From positions 1 to 24,548 of the IMG/VR virus record IMGVR_UViG_3300032213_000061: 24,548 bases of DNA; one strand, given 5' to 3'. Numbering within the stretch: position 1 is the first letter of the stretch; every line of letters begins with the position of its first letter. The notes below the pieces were generated by a model. The model saw only the letters and a program-made list of their open reading frames with translations, was not told the DNA's origin and ran no database searches. The stretch comes from a virus. The translations under genes were made by a program, and so were the position numbers. Positions 44 to 24,315 of this stretch are shown one piece after another.

Positions 44-517
44 ATGAGCGCAAGAATACCAGCCGAAGTCCATTTAATTCATGGCACTAAAGGCGAAAAA
101 ATGGGAACGCTCCTTCCCGAATCAGTTAAGCGAAGAATTCCCGAATCCGAGTGGATGGACAATCCTGAAGCTTGGAGCAAAAAAAGATTTTACGATGAAA
201 CCTCTGAATATCTTTACGATGTTTATGGCATAGGCTCGGATCAAGAGCGTCATGTCTTAACCATGCTAACAGATCAGATTGACACCTATGTGGATTGCAA
301 CCGCCATATTGCAGTTGAAGGATTAGTAACAACCTTTAATGATGGAAAGACTATTGGTCCATCGCCTTATGTATCTATTCGCAAAGAAGCTCTTAAACAA
401 ATTATTCTTTTGATGAATGAGCTTGGACTTACTCCAAAATCTAGGCTTGCTAAAACTAGCTCAATACCAACTTCAACTTTAGGAAAACTAATGTTAGGAC
501 CACAGGTTAAGAGATGA
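44..517 (+). CDS. terS: Terminase small subunit (P27 family)
   Basis: DNA-recognition subunit that hands phage DNA to the large terminase for packaging. The C-terminal half carries the P27-family pattern: a helix around HVLTMLTDQIDTYV, a short beta segment ending in GPSPYVSIRKEALK, and then ELGLTPKSRLAK, the 'LGLTPxSR' signature common at the end of this family. Length (157 residues) is normal. An in-frame GTG lies at 35, but ATG 44 is preferred because the purine-rich AAAGGGGGG at 27-35 sits about 8 nt upstream of it, while the GTG lies inside that ribosome binding site. The gene overlaps the large terminase start by 4 nt (ATGA), which suggests translational coupling. It opens the late structural operon in this window. 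Identification rests on motif pattern plus position next to terL. Confidence 0.85.
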   Translation: MSARIPAEVHLIHGTKGEKMGTLLPESVKRRIPESEWMDNPEAWSKKRFYDETSEYLYDVYGIGSDQERHVLTMLTDQIDTYVDCNRHIAVEGLVTTFNDGKTIGPSPYVSIRKEALKQIILLMNELGLTPKSRLAKTSSIPTSTLGKLMLGPQVKR

Positions 518-2172
518 GTTTTTTAACAGGTGTTCAATATGCTCAAGATGTAGTTAAGGGCAATATTGAAGTTTGCAATAATATAAAATTAGCATGTCAG
601 CGTTTCCTAAATTTTATGGAAGACAAGCATTGGGAATATGAATTCTTTCCTGAATATGTTGAACATGTATTAGATTTTGTATCTGTTCTTAAACACACTA
701 AAGGTCCTGACGCTGGGCAACCAATAGTTCTTGAACCTTTTCAAGTTTTACTTCTTTGCGGTATCTATGGATTCCGTCACAAGAAAGACCATGAAAAAAG
801 AATGACAACTGATGTCATTGTTTTTATTCCTCGCAAAGCTGGCAAATCAACTCTTACTGCAATTATAGGCTTATATGAATTAGCATTTAATGAAGCTGGC
901 GCTGAAGTTTTTACTCTTGCGACTAACAGAGAACAAGCCACTATTGTTTTTGATGCAGCTCGCTCAATGGTTGAATCTATGCCCGATGAAATTAAAGAAT
1001 GGTATCGAGTAAGCAAATATGAAATTGGCAAAGCTAATGATAGTCAAACAATGTTTAGAGCTTTATCTCGCGACAATAAAAAATCAGGTGACGGAAAAAA
1101 TGCATCATGCGCTATTATAGATGAAGCGGCTCAAATTGCTGATCGCAATAGTATAGAAGTTATATTTTCAGGCATGGTTGCTCGAAAAAATCCATTAAGG
1201 ATTTATATTACTACCGCATCATTTACTAAAGACACAAAGTTTTTTGAAGACCTAACTGCTTTTGAAACAATACTCAATGGCGATGCGCCTGACAATCCAC
1301 ATTGGTTTGGTTTGCTATATGGACTTGATCCGCAAGATAATTGGAAAGATGAAACTACTTGGGCTAAAGCTAATCCAATGCATGGCATATCTGTTTATCA
1401 AGAAGCAATCAAAGAAAGATGCGAACAAGCTAAATCAAAACCCGCAGCTCTTAACGAATTTCTTTGTAAAAGTCTTAATGTATATGTATCCGCTAACACC
1501 GCATGGATTGATCGTGACTACTGGGATAAATCTATAGGCGAAGATCAAGGCGATCCCGAAGAAGTGTTTATTGGATTTGACTTGGCTGCAACTCGCGACT
1601 TAAATGCAGTTTGCACTTTAAAACGATATGCTTCCGAAGATTATTATGCTGAATTCAAATTCTTTTTACCTGAAGAAGCGTTATCCTTGATTCCAACTCA
1701 TTATCGTGGTATATTTGACCAAGCCGTTCAATCTAAAATATTGCATATTACAGAAGGCAATGTTATGGATGATCGCGAGATTTCCGAATATATAAAACAA
1801 CAAGCTAGTTTATATAATGTCAAAGAAGTAGGCTATGACGCTTACAATGCAGCATCTTTAGTTGCTCGACTACATGATAATAGTATTCCCGTTAAAAAAG
1901 TTGGACAGGGTATGGCGGTTTTAAATAACCCATCCAAGCATGTTGAAAAGCTCATCATGCAAAACGCTATTAAACACAATGGCAATCCATTTGTGGGTTG
2001 GCAATTAGGCAATTGCGAAGTTTATACTGATGTCAATGGAAACATTAAGATCAGAAAAAACGAAGCAGATAAGTCAGCAAAGGTTGATGGTATAATAGCC
2101 CTTATTATTGCAATGCATTGCTCACTAGATCATCCATTGACTTCTACCTCATTTGGTTTTAGAAGCATATAA
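514..2172 (+). CDS. terL: Terminase large subunit (packaging ATPase/nuclease)
   Basis: Motor ATPase and endonuclease that translocates DNA into the prohead through the portal and cuts the concatemer. Visible in order: the adenine/Q-motif region EPFQ (about 74-77); Walker A PRKAGKST (106-113); a TLATNREQA segment; Walker B CAIIDEAA (199-206) with the catalytic Glu following Asp; coupling motif ITTAS (232-236). The C-terminal RNase H-like nuclease has acidic residues in IGFDLAAT (Asp356), VGYDAYNA (Asp442) and KVDGIIAL (Asp525). At 552 residues it is full length for the HK97/Terminase_1-type family. It starts at the ATGA overlap with terS. No intein or frameshift is apparent and all key residues are present, so it should be active. 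Confidence 0.97.
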   Translation: MSFLTGVQYAQDVVKGNIEVCNNIKLACQRFLNFMEDKHWEYEFFPEYVEHVLDFVSVLKHTKGPDAGQPIVLEPFQVLLLCGIYGFRHKKDHEKRMTTDVIVFIPRKAGKSTLTAIIGLYELAFNEAGAEVFTLATNREQATIVFDAARSMVESMPDEIKEWYRVSKYEIGKANDSQTMFRALSRDNKKSGDGKNASCAIIDEAAQIADRNSIEVIFSGMVARKNPLRIYITTASFTKDTKFFEDLTAFETILNGDAPDNPHWFGLLYGLDPQDNWKDETTWAKANPMHGISVYQEAIKERCEQAKSKPAALNEFLCKSLNVYVSANTAWIDRDYWDKSIGEDQGDPEEVFIGFDLAATRDLNAVCTLKRYASEDYYAEFKFFLPEEALSLIPTHYRGIFDQAVQSKILHITEGNVMDDREISEYIKQQASLYNVKEVGYDAYNAASLVARLHDNSIPVKKVGQGMAVLNNPSKHVEKLIMQNAIKHNGNPFVGWQLGNCEVYTDVNGNIKIRKNEADKSAKVDGIIALIIAMHCSLDHPLTSTSFGFRSI

Positions 2173-2181
2173 AGGAAAAAC

Positions 2182-3591
2182 ATGGCTATACTAGATATAT
2201 TCAAAAGAAAACCAAATCAAAACGCGCAAGAAAGTAATACTCTTTTTGGTCAAACTGCCCTAGGAAATAACATTCTACGCAATGTTAAAGGACTAGGAAC
2301 TCAATCAAATAACCAATTATTATATGTAACGACATCATCCGTTAATACCGCAGGTCGAGTATTGGATATGTCCACATTATCCCGTAACTCTACTGTTATG
2401 GCTTGTGTGAATGCAAAAGCTAGAGCATTAGCTCAATTACCTATTAAGATCATGGCTTATGACGCTGATGGCAAAATGGTTGATGCAATAACCGATCCTA
2501 ATGTTTCAACTCGCGACAAAGCTAAAGCTAAAGCCGTATATAACTTACTAAATAATCCTAATAACTATCAATCTTCATACGAGTTTTGGTATCAATGGTC
2601 AATGTGGTATGACTTATCAGGCGAAACATTTACTGCTTTATGGCGTAAAGAGCAAACAAACTCTACGCTAACACCAATGGAAATGTATCTTTTAGATTCA
2701 ACTTTAATTACCGCTCAAATTACTCCTACTCGTTATCCTACTTATAGATTATCGACTAGCACTTATGGTTTTAATAAAGATGAGCCATTAGATTATTTCC
2801 AAGTTATTCATGCTTCAGAAATGGCTTGGCAAGGTAGCGCTGGTTTTAATAAAGGTATTCTAGCAACTGAATTAGTATCACTAGATCAAGATATTGATTT
2901 ATATAGTAATTTTATTATGCTTAATGGTGCTAAACCTAGCGGCATGTTTGTTACAGACCAGGTTATTCCTGATGCTAAATTTAAAGAAATAGCAGCAAGA
3001 TTAAAAGAAGCATGGACTTCTTTAACAGGATCGCGTTCTACTGACTTATCTAAACCAGGACAAGGTATGTTGTTAGATAACGGCATGAAATATATGCCAT
3101 TAGAAATGCTAACACTTCAAGATGCGGATGCAAGAGCATTGAAACAACAAACTATGAAGCGCATTTGCGGCTTGTTTGGTGTTCCGCCTGCAATGATTGG
3201 AATTGAAGAAGGCAAGTATAATAACACACAAACAATGCTTGACGAATTCTATAAATCAACAATGCTTCCGATTATTACTAACATTCAACAAAAATTTAAA
3301 GCAAACTTACTTGCTGGCTATCCAAACCTCTGTATTGAATTTCAAACTCAAGATTTTCTTAAAGGCGCACCGCTAGATCAAATGAATTATGCGGTTGCTG
3401 GTGTGAATAATGGTATAATGACACCTAATGAAGCGCGCGAATATCTTGGTAAGCAAAATATGGCAGGCGCTGACGAATTAAAAGATACATCAAAACAAGC
3501 TAAACCTATAAGTGGCACTTCACCTCAAGATACAGGTGGCGGTGGAAATACTTCTAGCGTTAATCGCACAGGTCAGGCAGGTAAAGCCTAA
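2182..3591 (+). CDS. Portal protein (HK97 type)
   Basis: Dodecameric ring at the capsid vertex through which DNA enters and leaves, and to which the connector docks. The protein has the HK97/Phage_portal layout: an N-terminal region with NSTVMACVNAKARALAQLP (start of the wing), LYDLSGE-type 'WYDLSGETFTALWR', the stem region, then KRICGLFGVPPAMIGIEEG and NNTQTMLDEFYKSTMLP. The latter is the portal crown/clip signature ('fgvPp.liG' followed by 'e.....f....l.P'). The C-terminal tail (from about residue 435) is low-complexity, Gly/Ser/Thr-rich. Length 469 is typical. An AAAGGAAA ribosome site lies just upstream of ATG 2182. The stop codon overlaps the next mini-gene by one base (TAATG). Confidence 0.95.
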   Translation: MAILDIFKRKPNQNAQESNTLFGQTALGNNILRNVKGLGTQSNNQLLYVTTSSVNTAGRVLDMSTLSRNSTVMACVNAKARALAQLPIKIMAYDADGKMVDAITDPNVSTRDKAKAKAVYNLLNNPNNYQSSYEFWYQWSMWYDLSGETFTALWRKEQTNSTLTPMEMYLLDSTLITAQITPTRYPTYRLSTSTYGFNKDEPLDYFQVIHASEMAWQGSAGFNKGILATELVSLDQDIDLYSNFIMLNGAKPSGMFVTDQVIPDAKFKEIAARLKEAWTSLTGSRSTDLSKPGQGMLLDNGMKYMPLEMLTLQDADARALKQQTMKRICGLFGVPPAMIGIEEGKYNNTQTMLDEFYKSTMLPIITNIQQKFKANLLAGYPNLCIEFQTQDFLKGAPLDQMNYAVAGVNNGIMTPNEAREYLGKQNMAGADELKDTSKQAKPISGTSPQDTGGGGNTSSVNRTGQAGKA

Positions 3592-3701
3592 TGACATTAA
3601 AAGAGTTGCTCGATAAATTAACCCAACAGGCTAAAAAAAGAAAACCTAAACCTGTTGATACTAACGGAATGAAAAAAAAGGGAGTTCCAATCCATGACTA
3701 A
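3591..3701 (+). CDS. Candidate mini-gene between portal and protease (36 aa)
   Basis: A 36-codon reading frame starts at the portal stop (TAATG at 3589-3593). It has a good ribosome site, GGCAGG at 3576-3581, about 9 nt before the ATG. It reads MTLKELLDKLTQQ, then a strongly basic stretch (AKKRKPKP), and ends in KKKGVPIHD, with its stop inside the first codons of the protease gene (8-nt overlap). I do not recognise a family. The coupling at both ends and coherent helical-then-basic composition support translation. Its role may be a small basic head protein, or simply a leader that couples portal and protease translation. A small unassigned gene also lies at this place in some HK97-like and gene-transfer-agent clusters, which is only a positional parallel. 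Confidence 0.45.
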   Translation: MTLKELLDKLTQQAKKRKPKPVDTNGMKKKGVPIHD

Positions 3702-4488
3702 AGATATTAAATTTTTATTTGAATCAAAAGTAGCTCTAGGTGTTTCTGCCGATGAAGCTTCTGATGTTATGGGGGCTATTGAAGCTACTGTAACAACTTG
3801 GGGTGCTAGAGAAGGCGCTGATGGTCGTAAATTCAATTATATGCCTGAAGGTTTTGCACAATGGGCTGATGAGTTTGCTAAATCAGGTAAACCACTTCCA
3901 ATGTATTTCCAACACAATGATATGTCAATGCCTGTAGGCGAATGGCAGGAATTTACATTTACCGATGAAGGAATGGATGCTAAAGGCAGATTATTTACAA
4001 ACACAAGTGCTGGTAAAGACCTTTATACAATTATGAAAGAATCACCAGCTATGGTTGGCGGTGTATCAGTAGGTGCTTATGCTGATGAATATTGTATGGT
4101 TGATGCTGAAGGCATGGAAGTAGGCGCTGATGAAGATGGTTTCTTCCAAATTAAAAAAGGCGGTTTAAGAGAAGTGTCAATTGTTATGAATCCTAACAAT
4201 TTAGAATGCAATATCTCGAAATTAGAGTGCTTTAGAGCTGATGGTTCTTTAGACTTAAAACTAATCGAGAAAGCATTGCGTGATGCAAAACTTTCAAGAA
4301 AAGATGCGACCACCGCGTCTTCAATTTTCAAACAAATTTTAGCAACTCGTGATGAGCCTGAAATTGAAATTGAAAATACACCTATTCAGAGTGAAGCTGA
4401 TGCGGTGGTAAATGAAAATGAGGAAATTCTTAAAGCATTAGCTGAAAGAGAATTACTCAAAAAACTTAACAATCGTTTAAAAGGATAA
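3694..4488 (+). CDS. Prohead protease (HK97 gp4-like, S78 family)
   Basis: Serine protease of the herpesvirus-assemblin/HK97 type that clips the scaffold arm off the capsid protein inside the prohead. The catalytic-type residues are visible: His74 in YFQHND, Ser125 in VGGVSVGA, and Glu160 in LREVSIVMNPNN. These match the spacing and local sequence of the HK97 His-Ser-Glu arrangement. The catalytic core occupies about residues 25-175. The tail (about 180-264) is charged and helical, rich in Glu/Lys, which in this family often contacts scaffold and is autocleaved. It starts 8 nt inside the preceding mini-gene with a AAGGGAG ribosome site, and is followed by the capsid gene after 3 nt. Likely active. 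Confidence 0.93.
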   Translation: MTKDIKFLFESKVALGVSADEASDVMGAIEATVTTWGAREGADGRKFNYMPEGFAQWADEFAKSGKPLPMYFQHNDMSMPVGEWQEFTFTDEGMDAKGRLFTNTSAGKDLYTIMKESPAMVGGVSVGAYADEYCMVDAEGMEVGADEDGFFQIKKGGLREVSIVMNPNNLECNISKLECFRADGSLDLKLIEKALRDAKLSRKDATTASSIFKQILATRDEPEIEIENTPIQSEADAVVNENEEILKALAERELLKKLNNRLKG

Positions 4489-4491
4489 ATC

Positions 4492-5853
4492 ATGTCAGAA
4501 AAAATTATTGAAAAATTAGACGCTATTGAAGCAGCTAATTTAGCAAAAGTAGAAGAAATCACTTCTTCTGTTGATGCTAAACTTGCTGAAACAGTAGCTT
4601 CTTTCGATGAAAAGGTTGCAGCTCTTGAAGCTAAAGTAGCTTCAGTTAGAGAATCAGCTCCAGTAATCAAAACATACAAAACTATCTCTCAAGAAATCAA
4701 TCGTTCTGTTAAAGAACAATTAAAAGGTTTCCTTGGTAGCCGCGTAGAAAAAGAACTTAAAATGTTTGCAGACGAATCACATTATGATGCTTACATGAAG
4801 GAAGCTTCAGCATTAACAGGTTCAGGCGCTGGCATCGGCGGTGTAACTGCTTACGATCCAGTATTTGTTACACTTCGTTTAGCTAATCCACTTCGTGGCG
4901 TATCTCGTTCTGTTGCAACTGATGGCGCAACATATCAATTCCGCGCTAAAGTAGGTAATGCTGGTGTGGGTTGGGGCTATACAATTAATAACAACACAAC
5001 TGGCGGTGTTAATCCAACTACTATTGATACAAACATTTGGCAATTAACATTGCAAGATTTGAATGTTCAATTTCCAATCAGAACTGCAGCTCTTGACGAC
5101 ATCGATGGTTTAGAAAGCAATGTTGTATCAGACATGTTAGCTGAATTTGCACAAAACGAAGCTCTCTCTATGATCCAAAATAATGATCAAGCTGCTCAAT
5201 CAGCAACTAATCCTTATGGTGGCACAAATGGCTTACGCGGTTTAGATCAATACGCTGGCTCTAATGCAACATACGCTGGTGGCACAGTTTCTACTGCTGC
5301 TTTTGGCACAACAGGCACAGGTTCATCAAGTGGCTTACATTCATTGGCTACTTATGACCAAATCACAACAAACGCTAACACAGTAGGCGCTGCTAATATC
5401 AAGTATAAAGATGTAGTGAATTTTATCTATTCTTTACCACAACAATATTGGACAGAATCAGCAAAATTTGTTGTAAACCCAGTTTTACTTCAACAAATTC
5501 GTGGTTTAGTGGATGACCAAGGTCGCCCTATCTATGTTGATGGTTTAGCTAGAACTGATGGCATTGTTGGCACATTGTTAGGCTTTGATGTTGTTGTCAA
5601 TAAATATCTTGACAATCCTTCACAAGCTGCTACTGGCTCTGCTGGAACAACTAGCTTGTATCCAATGTATTTCGGTGATTGGCAAAGAGGTCATACAATC
5701 GTGGATCGTTTAAATATGGTTCTACGAAGATACGACCAAACGCTGCCAGGATCGATAACATTCTATGGTGAAAAGCGTTTAGCAACTTCTGTTGTTGATC
5801 CTTTTGCTATTATTCGTTATAGATCAACAGGCACTTCTACTAACCCTGCGTAG
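4492..5853 (+). CDS. Major capsid protein with scaffold (delta) domain, HK97 fold
   Basis: Main shell subunit. Residues about 1-60 form an Ala/Glu/Lys-rich coiled coil (KLDAIEAANLAKVEEI and following), followed by a basic linker. This matches the HK97 delta domain, which acts as internal scaffold and is removed by the protease. The mature fold probably begins near KEASALTGSG (103-112), strikingly close to the HK97 cleavage point after residue 103. Downstream hallmarks are FPIRTAALDDIDGL, GGTNGLRGLDQY, the NPVLLQQIRGL/VDDQGRPIYV segment, and a C-terminal RRYDQTLPGSITFYGEKR domain. Length 453. A strong intrinsic terminator follows directly, so this is likely the distal gene of a highly expressed transcript. 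It has a tandem paralogue downstream. Confidence 0.95.
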   Translation: MSEKIIEKLDAIEAANLAKVEEITSSVDAKLAETVASFDEKVAALEAKVASVRESAPVIKTYKTISQEINRSVKEQLKGFLGSRVEKELKMFADESHYDAYMKEASALTGSGAGIGGVTAYDPVFVTLRLANPLRGVSRSVATDGATYQFRAKVGNAGVGWGYTINNNTTGGVNPTTIDTNIWQLTLQDLNVQFPIRTAALDDIDGLESNVVSDMLAEFAQNEALSMIQNNDQAAQSATNPYGGTNGLRGLDQYAGSNATYAGGTVSTAAFGTTGTGSSSGLHSLATYDQITTNANTVGAANIKYKDVVNFIYSLPQQYWTESAKFVVNPVLLQQIRGLVDDQGRPIYVDGLARTDGIVGTLLGFDVVVNKYLDNPSQAATGSAGTTSLYPMYFGDWQRGHTIVDRLNMVLRRYDQTLPGSITFYGEKRLATSVVDPFAIIRYRSTGTSTNPA

Positions 5854-5862
5854 TGGATTGGG

Positions 5863-5892
5863 AAAGGGCGGAGCAATCCGCCCCTTCTTTTT
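5863..5892 (+). terminator. Rho-independent terminator between the two capsid genes
   Basis: A perfect 7-bp GC-rich stem, GGGCGGA (5866-5872) with TCCGCCC (5877-5883), closes a GCAA tetraloop (GNRA type, very stable). After a one-base bulge (C5884) the stem can extend through A-T pairs. The T-rich tract TTCTTTTT (5885-5892) follows at once. It lies 9-40 nt after the stop of the first capsid gene, on the coding strand. Its position suggests partial termination that makes the first capsid product far more abundant than the genes beyond it. Confidence 0.85.
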
Positions 5893-5912
5893 AACTTATT
5901 TAGGAAAGAAAA

Positions 5913-6968
5913 ATGAATACAACCGAAAGAATTTATAACGGAATCAAACAAGCTTTAACGGAAGGCGAAGCCAAAGTTAAGTTATTTGAGGAAGCAAAAG
6001 AAGTAGAAGAAGCTTCTGCTTTGACAGGTAGTGGTTTAAATATTGGTGGTAGAACATTTTTTGATGATTCTTTTGCAGCATTAAGATATGCAAATCCTTT
6101 CAGAATTGGAAGTCGCCAAATTATTTCTACTAGCACCTCTGCTGCTCAATTTGTAGCTAAAACTGGTAACGCAGCAAATTCAACAAATCCTTGGCTATAT
6201 GCCGTAACACCTGATAGTGGTAGCCCAAATATTGCTACTTCATTTTGGCAATTACCAACAAGAGTTATCGCTGCTCAACTACCTATTCGTAGCGCAGTAT
6301 TAGATGACATCAATTATTTAGAAGAAACTGTTGTTCAAGATTTAATGCTTGAATTTAGTCAATTAGAAGCAGCAAGTATGGCGCTTAACAACGATCAGGC
6401 TGGTTCTGTAACAACATCAACTGGCGGAACTAATGGTTTAAGAGGTTTGGCTTATTACAATGAAAGCACTTCAGCCGCTTCTTATGGTTCAAGTGGCAAT
6501 GCAATTACTGATGGCATTCATACAGTATTAAAAGAAGAATTTCCAAATGCAGCTATTACTTATGATGACATTGTAAATACGGCAAATCTATTACCAAGTC
6601 AATATTGGGCTTTACCTACTACTGCTTGGCATTTACATCCAGCATTAATAGCACAATTAAGAAAATTAAAAGGTTCTACAGGTGGCGCTCCAATGTTTGT
6701 AGAAACAGGAACAGAAGATGGTGGCTCATTAGTGTTTTTATTTGGATTCCCTGTAATTGCAAATCCATATTTAGAAACACCAGCTGCTGGTTCTTTATCA
6801 GGCGTGTTAGCAAATTGGGATAGATTCTTAACTATTGCTGATGCAGAAGAAATGATTATTAAACGCTTTGACCAAACACAACCAGGCACAGTAACGCTTT
6901 ATGCAGAGAAAAGATTAGCAAGCTCAATTCGCGATCCATTTGCTGGAGTTTATTTAATAGGGGCGTAA
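5913..6968 (+). CDS. Second HK97-fold capsid protein (paralogue without long scaffold arm)
   Basis: Clearly homologous to the upstream major capsid protein along its whole mature part. Shared segments are EASALTGSG (33-41 here, 104-112 upstream), a LRxANPxR segment, QLPIRSAVLDDINYLE against FPIRTAALDDIDGLE, an identical GGTNGLRGL, and C-terminal KRFDQTQPGTVTLYAEKRLASS against RRYDQTLPGSITFYGEKRLATS. It keeps only about 32 residues before EASALTGSG, so the long coiled-coil scaffold domain is absent. It sits behind a terminator and has its own ribosome site (AGGAAAG, about 8 nt before ATG). It could be a pentamer/vertex subunit in the manner of T4 gp24, a minor shell component, or a decoration-like protein. 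The fold assignment is firm; the role is inference. Confidence 0.9.
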   Translation: MNTTERIYNGIKQALTEGEAKVKLFEEAKEVEEASALTGSGLNIGGRTFFDDSFAALRYANPFRIGSRQIISTSTSAAQFVAKTGNAANSTNPWLYAVTPDSGSPNIATSFWQLPTRVIAAQLPIRSAVLDDINYLEETVVQDLMLEFSQLEAASMALNNDQAGSVTTSTGGTNGLRGLAYYNESTSAASYGSSGNAITDGIHTVLKEEFPNAAITYDDIVNTANLLPSQYWALPTTAWHLHPALIAQLRKLKGSTGGAPMFVETGTEDGGSLVFLFGFPVIANPYLETPAAGSLSGVLANWDRFLTIADAEEMIIKRFDQTQPGTVTLYAEKRLASSIRDPFAGVYLIGA

Positions 6969-6971
6969 TAA

Positions 6972-7637
6972 ATGAGTGATACATTAGGACAGGTTCAATA
7001 TGGAAGCACTCGTAATCCGTTCAACTATGATAAGTTTGAGCAGATTAATCGTGCTTTAACGACAGGATGGCTAACATTAGAAGAAATTACCCAACAATTA
7101 AATTTGTTTGGTGACGAATCTCAAGATGCTTATTTAGAAGGCTTGGAGTTAGCAGTTCGTATGCATATCGAAGATTATCTTGGTATGCCTATATTTCCTG
7201 TTTCGTATCGCGCGTATTATGGTATAAGTTCTATCTATGCAAGCCCTGTTTGTTTAGATTTGCCACAAGTATCTTATAAAGATAGTTACAATTCAGGTGG
7301 CGTTGTTATTAATAGTGTTAAATATTATAACGATGACACTCCTGTTACCCTTACTACTTTAGCAAGCTCTAACTATTCTTACGATCCTACAGGTAACAAA
7401 GTAATTTTACCTAATGGCACTCCGTCAGATGTAAATGTAAATGTAACATCGCCTATTGTTATTGAATATACAGTTAATCCTAACTTTTTACAGGCTTATC
7501 CTGTTATTAAACAAGCGGCTTTATTATTGCTAACTCATCTATATAACAACAGATCAGAAACAACTTTAAGTAAGTTACAAAATATTCCTTATGGAGTGGA
7601 TGCTCTTTTAAGACCTTATAAACCATTGGTGATGTAA
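6972..7637 (+). CDS. Head-tail connector / adaptor protein (HK97 gp6-like)
   Basis: Ring protein that docks under the portal and starts the neck. The N-terminal region WLTLEEITQQLNLFGDESQDAYLEGLELAVRMHIEDYLGMP is the helical hallmark of gp6-like connectors ('lit.eeak..l......d..i..li..A...ie.ylg'). The middle is a beta insertion. The C-terminus, YPVIKQAALLLLTHLYNNR then YGVDALLRPYKPLVM, is the classic ending of the family ('aillla..ly..R......p.gv..LL.pyr'). Length 221 is at the long end because of the beta insertion (about 75-165). Position right after the capsid genes agrees. It directly precedes the head-closure gene with no gap. Confidence 0.85.
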   Translation: MSDTLGQVQYGSTRNPFNYDKFEQINRALTTGWLTLEEITQQLNLFGDESQDAYLEGLELAVRMHIEDYLGMPIFPVSYRAYYGISSIYASPVCLDLPQVSYKDSYNSGGVVINSVKYYNDDTPVTLTTLASSNYSYDPTGNKVILPNGTPSDVNVNVTSPIVIEYTVNPNFLQAYPVIKQAALLLLTHLYNNRSETTLSKLQNIPYGVDALLRPYKPLVM

Positions 7638-12479: not shown

Positions 12480-13004
12480 ATGATTGACAATTGGTTTGAT
12501 CGCGAAAATGCTTTAGAACAAAATGATGAGTTATCTAACTTTTTAAAATATTGGTTAGAACATAAACCCTTTCAACCACCATTTGATTCTAATGCAGTTA
12601 ATATTACTGAAGATAATGTTATTGCAACTGTTCTTTATCGAGAAGATAATTTTCAAGTGCAATTAGTTACAGTTAGACCTAATACAGAAATTATTGATCA
12701 TATTCATCCTAATGTGGATAGCTTTGAAGTTTATCTATCAGGTGAGATTGCATTTAGGCGTAATCAAAAAAAGATTACAGGCAAAAAGTTTTGGCGTGAA
12801 CATAATAAAACTTGCGCTTATTTTGGATACTTTATTCGAGTGAATGCTAATGATTGGCATGGTGCTACAGTAGGCAATATGGGCGGATCATTTTTAAGTG
12901 TGCAACATTGGAAAAATGGAGCTAACCCATCTTCAGTCCATTGGGATTGGGAATATAAAGATAAAACAAAAACTACAAGAACAAGAAGACTTGTTAATTC
13001 TTAA
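12480..13004 (+). CDS. Cupin-fold protein in tail module
   Basis: A small protein (174 residues) with one cupin beta-barrel. Motif 1 is in RPNTEIIDHIHPNVDSFEVY with LSGEI: His74, His76 and Glu83, a standard HxH(x)nE metal site followed by the Gly of the turn. Motif 2 is IRVNANDWHGATVG with His127, the fourth metal ligand. SFLSVQHW closes the barrel and the last 20 residues are basic. All ligands are present, so metal binding is likely. Known cupins include dioxygenases, isomerases and sugar-binding proteins; the substrate cannot be told. It lies between tape measure and tip genes with its own AAAGGATAAG ribosome site, so it is co-expressed with the tail. It could be a structural beta-barrel, a glycan-binding tip part or an enzyme. 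Confidence 0.75.
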   Translation: MIDNWFDRENALEQNDELSNFLKYWLEHKPFQPPFDSNAVNITEDNVIATVLYREDNFQVQLVTVRPNTEIIDHIHPNVDSFEVYLSGEIAFRRNQKKITGKKFWREHNKTCAYFGYFIRVNANDWHGATVGNMGGSFLSVQHWKNGANPSSVHWDWEYKDKTKTTRTRRLVNS

Positions 13005-13703: not shown

Positions 13704-14296
13704 TGGATAATATAGTTCCATTACAAAATACGAATAATATAAGGATTGCAGACTTTGTAAGAATTACAACTGCTTCCGCTACCTATCGTTCTGCTACAAC
13801 CGCAGTTCCATTAACAATCCCAGCCGTTGATGCACTTCCATTTGATGCACTTGGCACGCTAGTTAAAATTGGTGATGTTCAACGCGACATTAAATCAACC
13901 GCAAACGAAACATCAATTACTTTAGTTGGTCTTGATACCGCACAATTAGGATGGGTATTAGGACATGATATTAAAGGTTCTTTAATTGAAATGTGGCATG
14001 GTTTCTTTAATGATAATAACGAATTAATTACCACAGGCGGCACAGGCGGTCTTTATAAATTCTTTACAGGCTATATTAGTTCTTTCCAAATATCAGAACA
14101 ATATATGGAAGAAGCTAAAATGTATGTAGGCGTTATAACTGCTTCAGCATCTAGTATTCAAATTATTCTTCAAAATAGAACCGCAGGTCGTTATACCAAT
14201 GATAATGCTTGGCAATATTGGAATAGTGGCGATACATCTATGAATCGAGTTAATTTTATTGAAACCATTAACTATGCTTTTGGGAAAGATGTTTGA
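13703..14296 (+). CDS. Tail tip / baseplate hub-like protein
   Basis: 197 residues. N-terminal strand IRIADFVRITTASATYRSA and then ALGTLVKIGDVQRDIKSTANE resemble the first beta domain of hub proteins (lambda gpL, DUF2163/DUF1833-type), where the tube end is sealed. IEMWHGFFNDNNELI and FTGYISSFQISEQ form the second beta layer. The C-terminus has the frequent tip signature ILQNRTAGRYTNDNAWQYW followed by GDTSMNRVNFI, ending FGKDV. No cysteine cluster (iron-sulfur, as in lambda gpL) is seen. Located between the distal-tail-like gene and the tip protein, the same order as M-L-(K-I)-J or gene-transfer-agent g12-g13. It overlaps the next gene by 4 nt through a TTG start. Confidence 0.65.
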   Translation: MDNIVPLQNTNNIRIADFVRITTASATYRSATTAVPLTIPAVDALPFDALGTLVKIGDVQRDIKSTANETSITLVGLDTAQLGWVLGHDIKGSLIEMWHGFFNDNNELITTGGTGGLYKFFTGYISSFQISEQYMEEAKMYVGVITASASSIQIILQNRTAGRYTNDNAWQYWNSGDTSMNRVNFIETINYAFGKDV

Positions 14297-14718
14297 TAAG
14301 ATTAGCTAACAGATACGATAACGATAAGATAATGGAATTGTTAAGGGAGTTTTGTTTTAATTCAAATAACCCGATAACTAACGATTCATTTAATTGGTCA
14401 AAAACTTATACGGAACAAATATTAAATACTTTATACGCTGGGCGTGGATTTGTATTAATAGATGAAAAGCAAACAGGTATTTTAATAGCGGCTAAATTTC
14501 AATCATTTTGGCGGCAAGATAAAATCCAATTACAAGAAATAATGCTTCATAGTAATAACAAATTTGTTATTGTTAGATTGATAAAAGAGTATATAAAGAT
14601 AGCAAAAGAAATGCTTAATAAAAATGAAATACAACAAGCTATTATGGCTTCTTATGAAGATTATGGATTTGAAAGATTTGGTATGGTTAAACTAGAACAA
14701 CATTGGGAAATTAAATGA
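14293..14718 (+). CDS. GNAT-like acetyltransferase, divergent
   Basis: A 141-residue protein with the outline of a GNAT fold: N-terminal MIRLANRYDNDKIMELLREF (strand 1 plus first helix), central strand pair GFVLIDEKQTGILIAAK, strand QLQEIMLHSNN with helix VIVRLIKEYIKIAKEM (acetyl-CoA side), and C-terminal SYEDYGFERFGMVKLEQHWE. The usual pyrophosphate-binding Q/RxxGxG/A turn is replaced by SNNKFVIV, so acetyl-CoA binding may be altered or lost. The start is TTG (14293) in a TTGA overlap with the upstream stop, with GGGAAAG about 5 nt before it; the next ATG is 48 nt downstream at 14332-14334 (in frame after AACGATAAGATA) and would truncate strand 1. It sits where many tails carry an NlpC/P60 peptidase. 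It ends in an ATGA overlap. Confidence 0.62.
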   Translation: MIRLANRYDNDKIMELLREFCFNSNNPITNDSFNWSKTYTEQILNTLYAGRGFVLIDEKQTGILIAAKFQSFWRQDKIQLQEIMLHSNNKFVIVRLIKEYIKIAKEMLNKNEIQQAIMASYEDYGFERFGMVKLEQHWEIK

Positions 14719-18622: not shown

Positions 18623-20992
18623 ATGCTTAATTATAGTGCCAATGGTCCTTCAGGTTATAACTTAACTAATTCTTTAAGAATTAGAAATAGTGCATCCGCT
18701 TATTTAGAAAGAACGCCATCAACAACAAGTGGAAATCAAATTTTTACTGTAAGTTTTTGGGTAAAAAGAGGATTGCTAGGTGTAAATACAGGTGCGGGAC
18801 AAAATATATTTTTTGCTTTCCAAGATGGAAGCAATGCAGATGCAATAGGTTTTGATGCTTCAGATAGATTTCAAATTCCATTTTTTGATGGTGGTGCATA
18901 TAACATATTTTTAGCAACTACACAAGTATTTAGAGATCCATCAGCTTGGTATCACATTGTTGTTGCTATTGATACTACGCAAGCTACAGCATCAAATAGG
19001 GCAAAAATATATGTTAATGGAAATCAAATAACATCATTTAGCACAGCCACTTATCCTTCTCAAAATGCAACATTTGCATTTAATAAAAATGTATTGCATG
19101 TATTAGGTGCTGGTTATTATTTTGGATACAGTTCATATTCCGATTTATATTTAACCGAAATTAATTGGATAACAGGACAAGCCCTAACGCCATCATCATT
19201 TGGCAATTACAATTCAGTAACAGGTGTATGGCAACCAGCTAAATACACAGGCACTTATGGCACTAATGGATTCTATTTGCCGTTTACTGATATAGCTTTA
19301 ACAAGTGGCTCTAACGCAGGTCTAGGTAAAGATTTTAGCGGTAACGGAAACTATTGGAATACTACCAACATATCTGTAACTGCTGGCACAACCTATGATG
19401 CTATGATTGATGTGCCTACTTTGACATCATTAACAGTTGCTAATTATTGTGTTTTAAATCCTTTAAATAAAGACACTTCTATTACTGTTACAAACGGAAA
19501 TTTAGCCGCTTCTGCTGGCGGAACTAATATTGGTGTTACAGGATCGTTTGCAATTTCTAGTGGCAAATGGTATTGGGAAATTACACAAACTGCTGGCGGA
19601 GTGGCAACATCTAATATTATAGGTATTACAGATTCAACACTTCCAGCTAAAACTGCTGGATTAACTACAAACAGTTATGGTTATGGAACAGGCACTACTG
19701 CATTTAAATGGAATGCTGGAACTAATACTGCTTATGGTGCAAATTGGACTAATGGTGATGTTATTAGTGTAGCTTTTGATGCCGATGCTGGAACAATTAC
19801 ATTCTATAAAAATAATGTAAGTCAAGGAACTGCATTTACAGGAATATCAGGAACATTTTATCCTGCATTTGGTTTTCAAAATACTTCTGCTTATGCAGTA
19901 AACTTTGGACAACGACCTTTTGCTTATACTCCACCTAGCGGCTATTTAGCATTAAACGCATTTAACTTACCTTCAAGCACCATTCCTAAAGGTAATACTG
20001 TGATGAATGCTATATTAAAAACTGGGACTGCTTCTGCATTTACAGTATCTTCTTTAAATTTTAAACCTGATTTTTTATGGGCAAAATCAAGAGCTACTGC
20101 TTTTAGCAATCTTTTAATTGATAGTGTTAGAGGTGGCGATTCTTATCTAGTTTCTGATGCTAATTCAGCAGAAGTAACTGGACAAGATGCAGTTACATCA
20201 TGGAATTCTAATGGATATACTGGCGGAACTTTAGGTGGTAGTTTTAATGCTAATGGTGATTCAGAAGTAAATTGGTTATGGCAAGCTGGACAAGGAACAA
20301 CATCATCTAATACTTCAGGCACTATTACATCTACTGTATCTGTAAACGCAACTGCTGGATTTAGTATTGTTAGTTTTGCATATCCCGCAGTTGGGGGTCA
20401 AACTATTGGACATGGACTTGGTGTTGCGCCTAAAATGATTTTTCTTAAATCAAGAAGCACCGCAACTTTATGGGTTGTTTATCATGCTTCAACGGGAAAT
20501 ACAGGATATTTCTCATTAAATACATCAGATGCTTTTTCAACAAATATCACAGTATGGAATAATACAAGTCCAACTTCTTCTGTATTTACACTTGGCTCGG
20601 GTTTTACATCTGCGGGATACGGAGCTAATGGCATTGCTTATTGCTGGGCAGAAATAGCAGGGTTTAGTAAGTTTACGAGCTATACTGGTAATGGAAGTGC
20701 TGATGGACCATTTGTATATTGTAATTTCAGACCTAAATTTGTTATGATTAAAAGAACAGTAAATGCTGGTGGTAGTTGGGCAATTTATGATTCTGCTAGA
20801 AACACATACAATGTGGCAAACTTAAGTTTATATCCAAATTTAAGTAGTGCAGATGATACTTATGATGTGCTTGATTTTACTTCCAATGGCTTTAAAATAA
20901 GAACTTCTTCATTAGGTGTAAACCAAAGTGGGGATACATTTATAGTAGCTGCATTTGCAGAAAACCCATTTAAAAACGCTTTAGCAAGATAA
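18623..20992 (+). CDS. Multidomain adhesin: LamG-like + SPRY-like + triplicated C-terminal units
   Basis: 789 residues. About 17-200 is a LamG/concanavalin-like jelly roll: YLERTPS, FTVSFWVKRG, WYHIVVAIDTTQ, KIYVNGNQ. About 313-430 is SPRY-like: SGKWYWEITQ, GDVISVAFDADAGTITFYKN, GTFYPAFGFQN, ending NFGQRPFAY. From about 470 three related units follow (tentatively the domain listed as DUF7483): KPDFLWAKSRATAFSNLLID, APKMIFLKSRSTATLWVVYH and RPKFVMIKRTVNAGGSWAIYD, each followed by a loop and Ser/Asn-rich strand. The third ends FIVAAFAENPFK. These are carbohydrate- or surface-binding folds, so a receptor-binding fibre or lateral appendage is likely. No trimerisation or autocleavage domain is obvious. 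It has an AAAAGGATAA ribosome site. Confidence 0.8.
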   Translation: MLNYSANGPSGYNLTNSLRIRNSASAYLERTPSTTSGNQIFTVSFWVKRGLLGVNTGAGQNIFFAFQDGSNADAIGFDASDRFQIPFFDGGAYNIFLATTQVFRDPSAWYHIVVAIDTTQATASNRAKIYVNGNQITSFSTATYPSQNATFAFNKNVLHVLGAGYYFGYSSYSDLYLTEINWITGQALTPSSFGNYNSVTGVWQPAKYTGTYGTNGFYLPFTDIALTSGSNAGLGKDFSGNGNYWNTTNISVTAGTTYDAMIDVPTLTSLTVANYCVLNPLNKDTSITVTNGNLAASAGGTNIGVTGSFAISSGKWYWEITQTAGGVATSNIIGITDSTLPAKTAGLTTNSYGYGTGTTAFKWNAGTNTAYGANWTNGDVISVAFDADAGTITFYKNNVSQGTAFTGISGTFYPAFGFQNTSAYAVNFGQRPFAYTPPSGYLALNAFNLPSSTIPKGNTVMNAILKTGTASAFTVSSLNFKPDFLWAKSRATAFSNLLIDSVRGGDSYLVSDANSAEVTGQDAVTSWNSNGYTGGTLGGSFNANGDSEVNWLWQAGQGTTSSNTSGTITSTVSVNATAGFSIVSFAYPAVGGQTIGHGLGVAPKMIFLKSRSTATLWVVYHASTGNTGYFSLNTSDAFSTNITVWNNTSPTSSVFTLGSGFTSAGYGANGIAYCWAEIAGFSKFTSYTGNGSADGPFVYCNFRPKFVMIKRTVNAGGSWAIYDSARNTYNVANLSLYPNLSSADDTYDVLDFTSNGFKIRTSSLGVNQSGDTFIVAAFAENPFKNALAR

Positions 20993-22014: not shown

Positions 22015-24315
22015 ATGGCTAATTATTCTATTGATGTTGTTGATAGCAACAATATAACAGTAGAAGTAACGCCTACTTCTACAACTGAAATTACTATTGA
22101 TCGTGGAGTGCAAGGCGCTTCAGGTCAATCAGGTTATAGTGGTTATTCAGGCTATAGCGGTGTATCAGGCGCTTCAGGTATATCAGGATTTAGTGGCATA
22201 AGCGGTTATTCAGGTTTTTCAGGAATTAGTGGTTGGTCAGGCGCTAGTGGTATAAGTGGAGCTTCAGGCATATCAGGTTGGAGTGGTGCAAGTGGCACAA
22301 GCGGATTTAGTGGTATATCAGGATGGAGTGGTATATCAGGATTTTCAGGATATAGCGGAAGTGGCATTAGTGGATGGAGTGGCTTTAGCGGAATATCAGG
22401 TTGGTCAGGATTTAGTGGCATTAATGGTTTAAGTGGATATAGCGGACAAAATGGCGCAGAGGGTATAAGCGGCTATTCAGGTTTTTCAGGATTTAGTGGC
22501 GAGGTTGGAACTTCAGGATTTAGCGGCTATTCAGGCATTTCAGGCTATAGCGGAATTAGCGGAACTAATGGCGTAAGTGGAGCTAGTGGTTTTAGCGGAT
22601 ATTCAGGTGCGGTTGGTGCAAGCGGAACTTCAGGCTATTCAGGATTTAGTGGTATAAATGGCGAAAGCGGATATTCAGGAATAAATGGTTCAAGCGGTCT
22701 ATCAGGTTATAGCGGATATAGCGGACTGGTCGGCGCTTCAGGCATATCAGGATTTAGTGGCTATAGTGGAACAAGTGGCTATAGTGGCGCAGTAGGCGCA
22801 AGCGGAACAAGTGGTATATCAGGCTATAGCGGATTTAGTGGCGCACAAGGTCAATCATCAAGCTTTTTTGAATATGATGCTCATACAACATCAACTTCAG
22901 GCTACCCAGGCAATGGTAAAATTAGTTGGGATAATGCAACTCAAGCAAGTGCAACTATAGTTAATGTTTCACACTTAACTAAAACTAATGTTGATATAGA
23001 TATTTATTTAGCTTTATTAACCAACACAGAACAATTTGTAATTCAAGATCAAAATGCAAGTATTAATTCTCAAACTTGGCAAATTAATGGCACACCAATT
23101 AATTACAATGCTGGCACTTCAACCTCTTATTGGGCTTATCCTGTTACTTTAGTATCAAGTAGTGGCACAGGCACTACAAACTTTGCAAACAATCATAATT
23201 TAATTTTAGCACTTGTTAATGGTGTATCAGGCGTATCAGGGTTTAGCGGATATAGTGGCTATAGTGGATTTTCAGGCGCACAAGGAACTAGCGGATTTTC
23301 AGGTTATAGCGGTGCAGTTGGAACTCCAGGTCTTTCAGGTTATAGCGGATATTCAGGATATTCAGGCGAACAAGGTTTGTCAGGCTTTAGCGGAATCAAT
23401 GGTGCTAGTGGAACAAGCGGATTTAGCGGAACTAACGGAACAAGCGGCGCATCAGGCTTTTCAGGATATTCAGGTTTTAGTGGAGCAGTAGGCACAAGTG
23501 GGTTTAGTGGCTATAGCGGAACTAATGGAACTAATGGTGATTCAGGCTTTAGTGGATATTCAGGTCTTTCAGGATTTTCAGGAATAAGCGGATATTCAGG
23601 TTGGAGTGGCGAACAAGGCTTTTCAGGCTATAGTGGTATTAACGGAACTTCAGGCATTAGCGGATTTAGTGGCGCTAACGGAACATCGGGTTTTAGTGGA
23701 TATTCAGGAAGTGGATTTAGTGGCTATTCGGGATATAGTGGTTATAGTGGTGCTGATGGAGCATCAGGCATAAGTGGTTATTCAGGCTTTAGTGGTGCGA
23801 ATGGCGCAAGTGGTTTTTCAGGTTGGAGTGGCATAAGCGGTTATAGTGGCACATCAGGGTATTCAGGTTATAGCGGCGTAGCTCCCAATGCAACTTATAT
23901 TAGAACTCAATTTGCTGCAACGGCTGGGCAAACTGTATTTACTGTTGCTTATACTGTTGGCTATCTTGAAGTATTCCAAAACGGAACATTCCTAAAATTA
24001 GGCACAGATTATACTGCAACTAATGGCACTTCATTTACTTTAGCTACAGGTGCTACACTTAATGATGTTGTTGAAGCGATTGCTTATAACACAATTAATA
24101 TTGCCACACCTGCAATGATTTACAATACATTTACTGCAACGGCTGGACAAACATCATTTACAACAAGCAATACTTATACTGCAAATAAAATTCAAATATC
24201 AGTTAATGGTGTAGAATTAGTTAATGGAAGTGATTGCACAGTTAGCGGTGGCACTACATTTACAACAACTGCATTAGCACTAAACGACAGGGTATCAGCA
24301 ATATATCCAATATAA
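22015..24315 (+). CDS. Collagen-like Gly-X-Ser tail fibre
   Basis: 766 residues. Layout: a short beta head (1-30, NYSIDVVDSNNITVEV); a Gly-X-Y block of 251 residues (31-281, 83 triplets plus a two-residue break); a globular insert of about 121 residues (282-402) containing SGYPGNGKISWDNATQAS, of the kind that interrupts collagen-like phage fibres; a second Gly-X-Y block of 221 residues (403-623, 73 triplets plus a break); and two copies of a beta module starting FAATAGQTVF (633) and FTATAGQTSF (706). The Y position is mostly Ser, X is often Tyr, Phe, Trp or Ile, and there is a single Pro, unlike animal collagen. Likely a trimeric rod with terminal adhesin. It has no strong ribosome site, which fits coupling to the gene ending one base upstream. 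Confidence 0.85.
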   Translation: MANYSIDVVDSNNITVEVTPTSTTEITIDRGVQGASGQSGYSGYSGYSGVSGASGISGFSGISGYSGFSGISGWSGASGISGASGISGWSGASGTSGFSGISGWSGISGFSGYSGSGISGWSGFSGISGWSGFSGINGLSGYSGQNGAEGISGYSGFSGFSGEVGTSGFSGYSGISGYSGISGTNGVSGASGFSGYSGAVGASGTSGYSGFSGINGESGYSGINGSSGLSGYSGYSGLVGASGISGFSGYSGTSGYSGAVGASGTSGISGYSGFSGAQGQSSSFFEYDAHTTSTSGYPGNGKISWDNATQASATIVNVSHLTKTNVDIDIYLALLTNTEQFVIQDQNASINSQTWQINGTPINYNAGTSTSYWAYPVTLVSSSGTGTTNFANNHNLILALVNGVSGVSGFSGYSGYSGFSGAQGTSGFSGYSGAVGTPGLSGYSGYSGYSGEQGLSGFSGINGASGTSGFSGTNGTSGASGFSGYSGFSGAVGTSGFSGYSGTNGTNGDSGFSGYSGLSGFSGISGYSGWSGEQGFSGYSGINGTSGISGFSGANGTSGFSGYSGSGFSGYSGYSGYSGADGASGISGYSGFSGANGASGFSGWSGISGYSGTSGYSGYSGVAPNATYIRTQFAATAGQTVFTVAYTVGYLEVFQNGTFLKLGTDYTATNGTSFTLATGATLNDVVEAIAYNTINIATPAMIYNTFTATAGQTSFTTSNTYTANKIQISVNGVELVNGSDCTVSGGTTFTTTALALNDRVSAIYPI
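22105..22857 (+). repeat. Gly-X-Ser triplet repeat, block 1
   Basis: 753 nt encode 83 Gly-X-Y triplets plus one two-residue Gly-Ser break at 22357-22362. Nine-base periodicity is visible as alternating TCAGGA/AGTGGT-type units, with Ser codons mixed among TCA, AGT and AGC and Gly codons among GGT, GGC and GGA. Occasional triplets (GINGxxG, GAVGAS, GTNGVS) replace the dominant Gly-aromatic-Ser. It is part of the fibre gene, not a CRISPR. Confidence 0.95.
23221..23883 (+). repeat. Gly-X-Ser triplet repeat, block 2
   Basis: 663 nt encode 73 triplets plus one two-residue Gly-Ser break at 23707-23712, in the same local context (GYSGSG) as the break in block 1. It holds the only proline of the two blocks (GTPGLS near 23323). 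Composition and codon mixing are as in block 1, so the two blocks probably arose by internal duplication and then drifted. Confidence 0.95.
23911..24312 (+). repeat. Tandem C-terminal adhesin module (two copies)
   Basis: Copy 1 begins at 23911 (FAATAGQTVF, then a YLEVFQNGTFLKLGTDYTAT segment and TLNDVVEAI). Copy 2 begins at 24130 (FTATAGQTSF, then IQISVNGVELVNGSD and ALNDRVSAI). Each is about 60 residues of beta type with pattern F.ATAGQT.F ... NG..L..G.D ... L.D.V. A related copy lies in the J-like protein from 17199. Confidence 0.85.

Follow-up and report, generated by a model that had tools for sequence, protein, structure and literature searches.

Through quasi-equivalence, one HK97-fold protein can supply pentamers as well as hexamers, an economy on which small phages are believed to rely. 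T4 has two shell proteins, of which the vertex protein is shorter than the main one and has a shorter propeptide. The T4 pentamers are formed by gp24 and the hexamers by gp23, the two proteins having probably arisen by duplication, and a gp23 mutant is able to replace gp24 (PMC3185693). Phages of about 40 kb, such as HK97 and P22, need just one coat protein for their T=7 shells, two being used only in rare cases, and separate penton genes are rare, with T4 as the example (PMC13185644, a 2026 review); an earlier, sequence-only reading of the present locus had called its second shell gene unusual, in agreement with this survey.

The window, i.e., the whole 24.5-kb stretch of DNA analyzed here, comes from a virus record and is a genome fragment of a tailed phage closely related to Methylophilaceae phage P19250A (95% identity in the terminase large subunit, TerL, and 93% in the portal protein). 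Its head module reads, from 5' to 3', small terminase, TerL, portal, S78 prohead protease, MCP1, MCP2, and connector (Table 1); as for HK97-fold capsid genes, the genes for portal, S78 protease, and connector (Pfam, PHROGs) adjoin the MCP1/MCP2 pair, and the S78 protease is presumed to remove the capsid arms. The HK97-type heads of Bcep176 and SfIV are encoded in the same order of portal, protease, capsid with built-in arm, and connector; unlike the window, these two genomes and those of RHph_X2_25 and PHTowN, all four taken as outgroups, each contain exactly one PF05065 gene. The phage had been described as lambda-like, which fits the tail, with its lambda-type tape-measure domain (PF09718), but not the head, which is of the HK97 type to judge from TerL, portal, S78 protease, and a capsid with built-in arm, the nearest solved capsid being that of the Rhodobacter gene transfer agent (GTA).

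The same pair is found in the same order in P19250A (KX815270, genes 0005 and 0006, each 72% identical to its counterpart in the window), and the organization does not differ; the record labels 0005 as capsid and 0006, the MCP2 gene, as "hypothetical protein." A search of the searchable literature, whose scope leaves out most subscription papers, found neither a siphophage with two capsid genes nor a paper describing the P19250A genome, so that, as far as this literature shows, the pair has been visible in a published genome yet unrecognized. For phage Venkman a gene order resembling that of P19250A has been reported (PMC8163748); in the present comparison its genome (MT375522) has an unrelated, podovirus-type head, a podovirus-type tail, and no PF05065 match, and it was rejected as a member.

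Table 1. Coordinates of head-module features in the window
Feature	Position	Strand	Evidence or remark
Terminase large subunit (TerL)	514..2172	+	PF20441/PF03354; 95% identical to P19250A, next phage ~33%
Portal protein	2182..3591	+	PF04860 6.8e-61
S78-type prohead maturation protease	3694..4488	+	PF04586 7.7e-9; PHROG head maturation protease
MCP1, main HK97-fold capsid protein, 453 aa	4492..5853	+	PF05065 1.5e-29; proposed hexon subunit
MCP1 scaffold (delta-like) arm, residues 1-103	4492..4800	+	Sequence; AF2 helices, low-confidence model
EASALTGSG, MCP1 residues 104-112	4801..4827	+	Inferred start of mature protein; E104 invariant
GC-rich hairpin and T-run, terminator/attenuator-like, in MCP1-MCP2 gap	5860..5893	+	Stem 5866-5883; MFE -19.9
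Shine-Dalgarno-like AGGAAAG of MCP2	5902..5908	+	Sequence
MCP2, paralogous HK97-fold capsid protein, 351 aa	5913..6968	+	PF05065 3.3e-18; proposed penton (vertex) subunit
MCP2 short conserved N-arm, residues 1-32	5913..6008	+	Alignment; arm-length distribution
EASALTGSG, MCP2 residues 33-41	6009..6035	+	Invariant E shared (E104/E33)
Head-tail connector (Ad1/gp6-like), directly 3' of MCP2	6972..7637	+	PF05135, PHROG 40

Several other frames of the window deserve mention. A 766-aa protein (22015-24315) consists mostly of collagen-like triplets of the GFSGYSG type and is probably a tail or surface fiber, and a 789-aa protein with a SPRY domain and DUF7483 (18623-20992) is probably related to receptor binding or tail fibers. 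A 174-aa protein of cupin-like look (12480-13004; HIHPN...E..G) separates the tape-measure gene from the tail gene that follows; it has no Pfam match, and P19250A has no gene at the corresponding place. A 141-aa frame overlapping its neighbors (14293-14718) resembles GNAT acetyltransferases by eye, also without a Pfam match; a frame of equal length occupies the equivalent place in P19250A.

The tandem paralogous HK97-fold capsid genes proposed earlier were recovered as two open reading frames, both of which match PF05065 well above the cut-off of 24.2 bits (103.7 bits for MCP1 and 66.5 bits for MCP2), and PHROG 10, "major head protein," matches the two alike. The proteins share 143 of 360 residues in a BLASTP alignment (40% over the mature region, E = 4e-72), and their profile-profile alignment (probability 100%, E 4.5e-85) spans the region from the EASALTGSG motif to the C terminus; all four shared segments quoted in the sequence-only reading are present in both. 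Like T4 with gp23 and gp24, the phage encodes a paralogous pair of HK97-fold shell proteins, and it resembles the T4 way of working in that a second paralogous shell gene always lies beside the main one (at least 144 pairs). Unlike in T4, the genome is far smaller, at about 38 kb, the two genes lie only 59 nt apart in one operon, and the 40% identity of MCP1 and MCP2 compares with the 21% similarity quoted for gp23 and gp24. PF05065 is the sole Pfam family reported for MCP1 and MCP2, and neither falls into a T4 capsid family, which argues for an independent duplication. The best explanation of the pair is a duplication of an HK97-fold major capsid protein that is ancient and functionally split.

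AF2 models were built from the sequences of 25 relatives, with the P19250A rows left out, and reached moderate confidence for MCP2 (pLDDT 65, pTM 0.70) and poor confidence for MCP1 (pLDDT 48). MCP2 is modeled with the HK97 fold in full, including the E-loop and the P and A domains; over about 240 residues the model matches the Rhodobacter capsulatus GTA capsid (Z 21.1, 248 residues), the cf-PICI capsid EcCI2 (19.9), and HK97 (15-17), whereas the same fold is assigned to MCP1 from its sequence alone. The GTA capsid (6tb9/6tsu) is also the closest solved relative by sequence, with E-values of 3.4e-11 for MCP1 and 3.8e-7 for MCP2; the GTA, with one capsid protein against two here, forms both pentamers and hexamers from it. 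Both proteins of the two-component family 2B encapsulins, which have two HK97-fold proteins per shell, appear among the fold matches of the MCP2 model as well, but they are only 11-12% identical in the structural alignment, and these encapsulins are cellular compartments without portal or protease.

The two proteins differ most in their N-terminal arms. The lengths of 103 and 32 residues before the motif given in the sequence-only reading agree with its position in the two proteins, but its description of one protein as lacking the scaffold arm holds only in part: the MCP2 arm is much shorter, yet a short conserved arm is kept, with the pattern M..(T)E.IL.GIK.AL..G.... Across the pairs, the arm measures 22-47 residues in MCP2 and 103-111 in MCP1 (5-95% of pairs), with medians of 27 and 104 residues before the motif, and the MCP1 arm is mostly helical in its low-confidence AF2 model (residues 2-53, 65-89, and 95-106). 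If the arms are removed as propeptides, MCP2 would have the shorter propeptide, as gp24 does in T4. The structural alignment of the MCP2 model with HK97 begins at MCP2 residue 56 and HK97 residue 128, which places E33 near HK97 residue 105; the known HK97 cleavage site, K103/S104, adjoins the position matched by E33 and likewise by MCP1 residue 104. This proximity, together with the invariance of E104/E33 across both families, makes it plausible that MCP1 and MCP2 are both cut by the protease to give matching ends, with removal of about 103 and 32 residues, respectively.

Conservation of the pair in related genomes was examined with several IMG/VR scans, each covering the best 80 loci. Scans with MCP2 and with MCP1 gave at least 99 distinct complete pairs, and at least 144 distinct complete pairs were collected overall, with no loss among the listed contigs that extend across the site. 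Wherever MCP1 stands without a listed MCP2 among the IMG/VR matches listed, the contig ends within 1.1 kb, and in the MCP1-only contig with the most room (L118) an MCP2 frame is open to the contig end. An independent scan anchored on the downstream connector, which avoids anchoring on a capsid gene, placed MCP2 directly upstream in 78 of the best 80 loci, the remaining two contigs stopping too early, and in these loci MCP1 precedes MCP2 wherever the contig reaches. Nineteen long records (36-41 kb) have one MCP1 and one MCP2 each, MCP1 being split by the record ends in one of them, and a scan of genome contigs yielded five loci, all from metagenome bins and all with the pair. Median dN/dS over 312 comparisons is 0.195 for MCP1 and 0.225 for MCP2, and both genes are therefore under purifying selection. 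Routine decay in relatives would have pointed to a relic duplication; no decayed relatives were seen, and the idea that MCP2 is a relic on its way to decay, for which we found no evidence in favor, is rejected by its retention in every listed contig that covers the site, its open frames, and a dN/dS of about 0.22.

In a maximum-likelihood tree of 48 representatives of each family, with long outgroup branches, the MCP1 sequences and the MCP2 sequences fall into one group apiece (support values of 96 and 94), indicating a single duplication that predates the entire clade; no homogenization is apparent. A close sister lineage with a single capsid gene was not found, the next sequenced phages being about 33% identical in TerL and 24% in the portal; as the IMG/VR scans cover the best 80 loci, more distant single-gene relatives could be missed. 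The distances of MCP1 and MCP2 correlate with r = 0.38, no better than with neighboring genes, and those of MCP2 and the connector with r = 0.54; the mirror-tree analysis gave no specific signal of MCP1-MCP2 coevolution, which weighs against the hexon/penton reading favored below. The two trees disagree, for instance at L151, L192, and L249, which indicates that partners have been swapped by recombination. The shell genes have thus apparently been exchanged separately between lineages, although their products would have to coassemble.

The junction between the two genes contains a GC-rich hairpin followed by a T-run. A terminator-like hairpin is present at this junction in 90% of the 144 pairs listed, compared with 1% of protease-MCP1 junctions, 2% of MCP2-connector junctions, 0-1% of the interiors of either gene, and about 1% of shuffled MCP1-MCP2 junctions. 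The 128 hairpins have 69 different stem sequences, and the distance from the stem end to the MCP2 start is 21-30 nt in 5-95% of cases; with so many stems at a near-constant place, the structure is conserved and the sequence is not. A plain terminator scan of the whole window gave no more matches than shuffles, so that what speaks for the hairpin is how regularly it recurs between these two genes. Read most simply, the arrangement points to an excess of MCP1, with MCP2 and the downstream genes expressed by read-through. In the window about 20 nt separate the end of the T-run from the MCP2 ATG, too short a space for a promoter, but a promoter inside the end of MCP1 may be a source of MCP2; the window has fewer matches to sigma-70-type promoters than its shuffles have, and these matches are uninformative. 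It is possible, if somewhat unlikely, that the hairpin is not a terminator and instead serves the processing or stability of the MCP1 message, or influences how MCP2 is translated: the tight spacing to the MCP2 start would suit such a role, but a GC stem followed by a T-run is the form of an intrinsic terminator, and the many different stems at one place argue for structure plus T-run as what is kept. In locus L061 (2078-2421), and also in L062, an HNH-endonuclease-like frame lies between MCP1 and MCP2, giving a pair with a 344-nt gap; it was recognized by eye from its CxxC pairs and a DVDHKDGDRKNN...LCANCH stretch.

Synonymous codon bias, taken here as a proxy of expression only, is strongest for MCP1 among the genes measured (0.48), followed by the major tail protein (0.34), MCP2 (0.30), portal (0.21), connector (0.20), and protease (0.18), and MCP1 exceeds MCP2 in 109 of 111 genomes. 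Such an order would suit proteins present in hundreds of copies, in tens to hundreds, and in about a dozen, respectively. Together, hairpin and codon bias suggest that MCP2 is made in smaller amounts than MCP1 but in larger amounts than a 12-copy part, as would be expected of a protein of which tens of copies are required. The same codon bias could also reflect low-copy roles other than that of a penton. A terminator at this place would moreover lower all downstream genes and not single out MCP2, a point that we count against a penton role.

Comparison of the two families revealed 50 positions invariant in both, 98 invariant in MCP1 only, and 25 in MCP2 only, as well as three positions fixed to different residues (R151/V81, F326/W239, and F394/L299, in MCP1 and MCP2, respectively). 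By this measure MCP1 is under the tighter constraint, which would be expected of a protein that has to fit six hexon environments when MCP2 has to fit only one, though fewer invariant positions in MCP2 also fit any minor role. Extra domains are found in some lineages, on MCP2 only. One lineage (L172, L174, L183, L187, L189, and L191) has an insert of about 75 residues in the E-loop region of MCP2, which matches PHROGs 21413 and 38233 (tail-fiber proteins and unknown proteins) and resembles a beta motif of tail-fiber proteins, and MCP1 of these loci is of normal length; in L172 and L183, the shared motif of MCP1 is itself altered (KETGSQLGNPAGYGSGYN). Three further loci (L151, L203, and L249) have a domain of about 95 residues ahead of the short MCP2 arm, which is PHROG 2859, a family without assigned function, in the two tested (L203, 1326-1628, and L249, 2659-2955) and would lie inside the procapsid if the arm faces the lumen. 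That MCP2 tolerates extra domains fits a subunit at limited positions. The conserved hairpin, the codon-bias ranking, and the inserts and fusions confined to MCP2 are new here.

Taking expected abundance, selection, fold, and the T4 precedent together, we consider it probable, at roughly 0.6, that MCP1 forms the hexons and MCP2 the pentons. The abundant MCP1, with its scaffold arm of about 103 residues, would build the hexamers and drive procapsid assembly, and MCP2, whose arm is largely gone but whose fold is complete, would form the pentamers at the vertices without portal. For a shell that we infer to be T=7, this would amount to about 55 copies of MCP2 and about 360 of MCP1. In this scheme, the hairpin would stop most transcription after MCP1 and leave MCP2 and the connector and tail genes to read-through, and the S78 protease would trim both shell proteins near the common EASALTGSG motif. 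The wider proposition, that a widespread clade of siphophages of about 38 kb has evolved a dedicated penton of its own, sets the stoichiometry by an intrinsic terminator, and in some lineages lets the penton alone mount an extra domain on the surface or the lumen side, stands in our view at about even odds.

Other roles for MCP2 were weighed against the same observations. It might be a minor subunit elsewhere in the shell: around the portal vertex as a ring, at one set position within mixed hexamers, or as a cap if the head is prolate. Any low-copy shell position would agree with its intermediate codon bias and with the lower expression expected of it, and MCP2 adjoins the connector, whose distances it follows more closely than those of MCP1. 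A 12-copy role, however, predicts a codon bias like that of portal or connector, and MCP2 lies higher, while for the ring in particular no shell protein dedicated to it is known to us from HK97-fold phages; we regard such placements as unlikely. Capsid size can also be redirected by a separate shell protein, a device of satellites and capsid-forming PICIs, and the largely lost arm of MCP2 and the presence of the cf-PICI capsid EcCI2 among the nearest solved structures would agree with an assembly or size-control factor, or a builder of alternative particles, that mature virions lack or contain only in substoichiometric amounts. Yet both genes belong to one operon of one phage in every member, with no second set of packaging genes seen, and MCP2 has a complete shell fold, a conserved motif at the presumed mature N terminus, and in some cases an insert in the E-loop region, all of which make this role quite improbable. 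Free mixing of MCP2 into hexamers as a second, interchangeable hexon type is conceivable from the 40% identity of the cores, but the split of conserved residues and the universal retention of both genes speak against redundancy, and the conserved hairpin and codon-bias gap imply unequal amounts; we hold it to be very improbable.

A dedicated penton made by MCP2 would be of interest beyond this locus. By devoting another 1 kb or so of its 38 kb to a second shell protein, a large and widespread freshwater clade offers a natural experiment on what makes a dedicated vertex subunit worthwhile. If the assignment of hexons to MCP1 and pentons to MCP2 is true, it would be a second origin of a T4-like division of labor, in a phage fit for simple coexpression. 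With one cultured member, two short genes, and a built-in scaffold, the P19250A system is far easier to test than T4, and the hexon/penton split, the control of stoichiometry, and the use of vertices for extra domains are all testable there.
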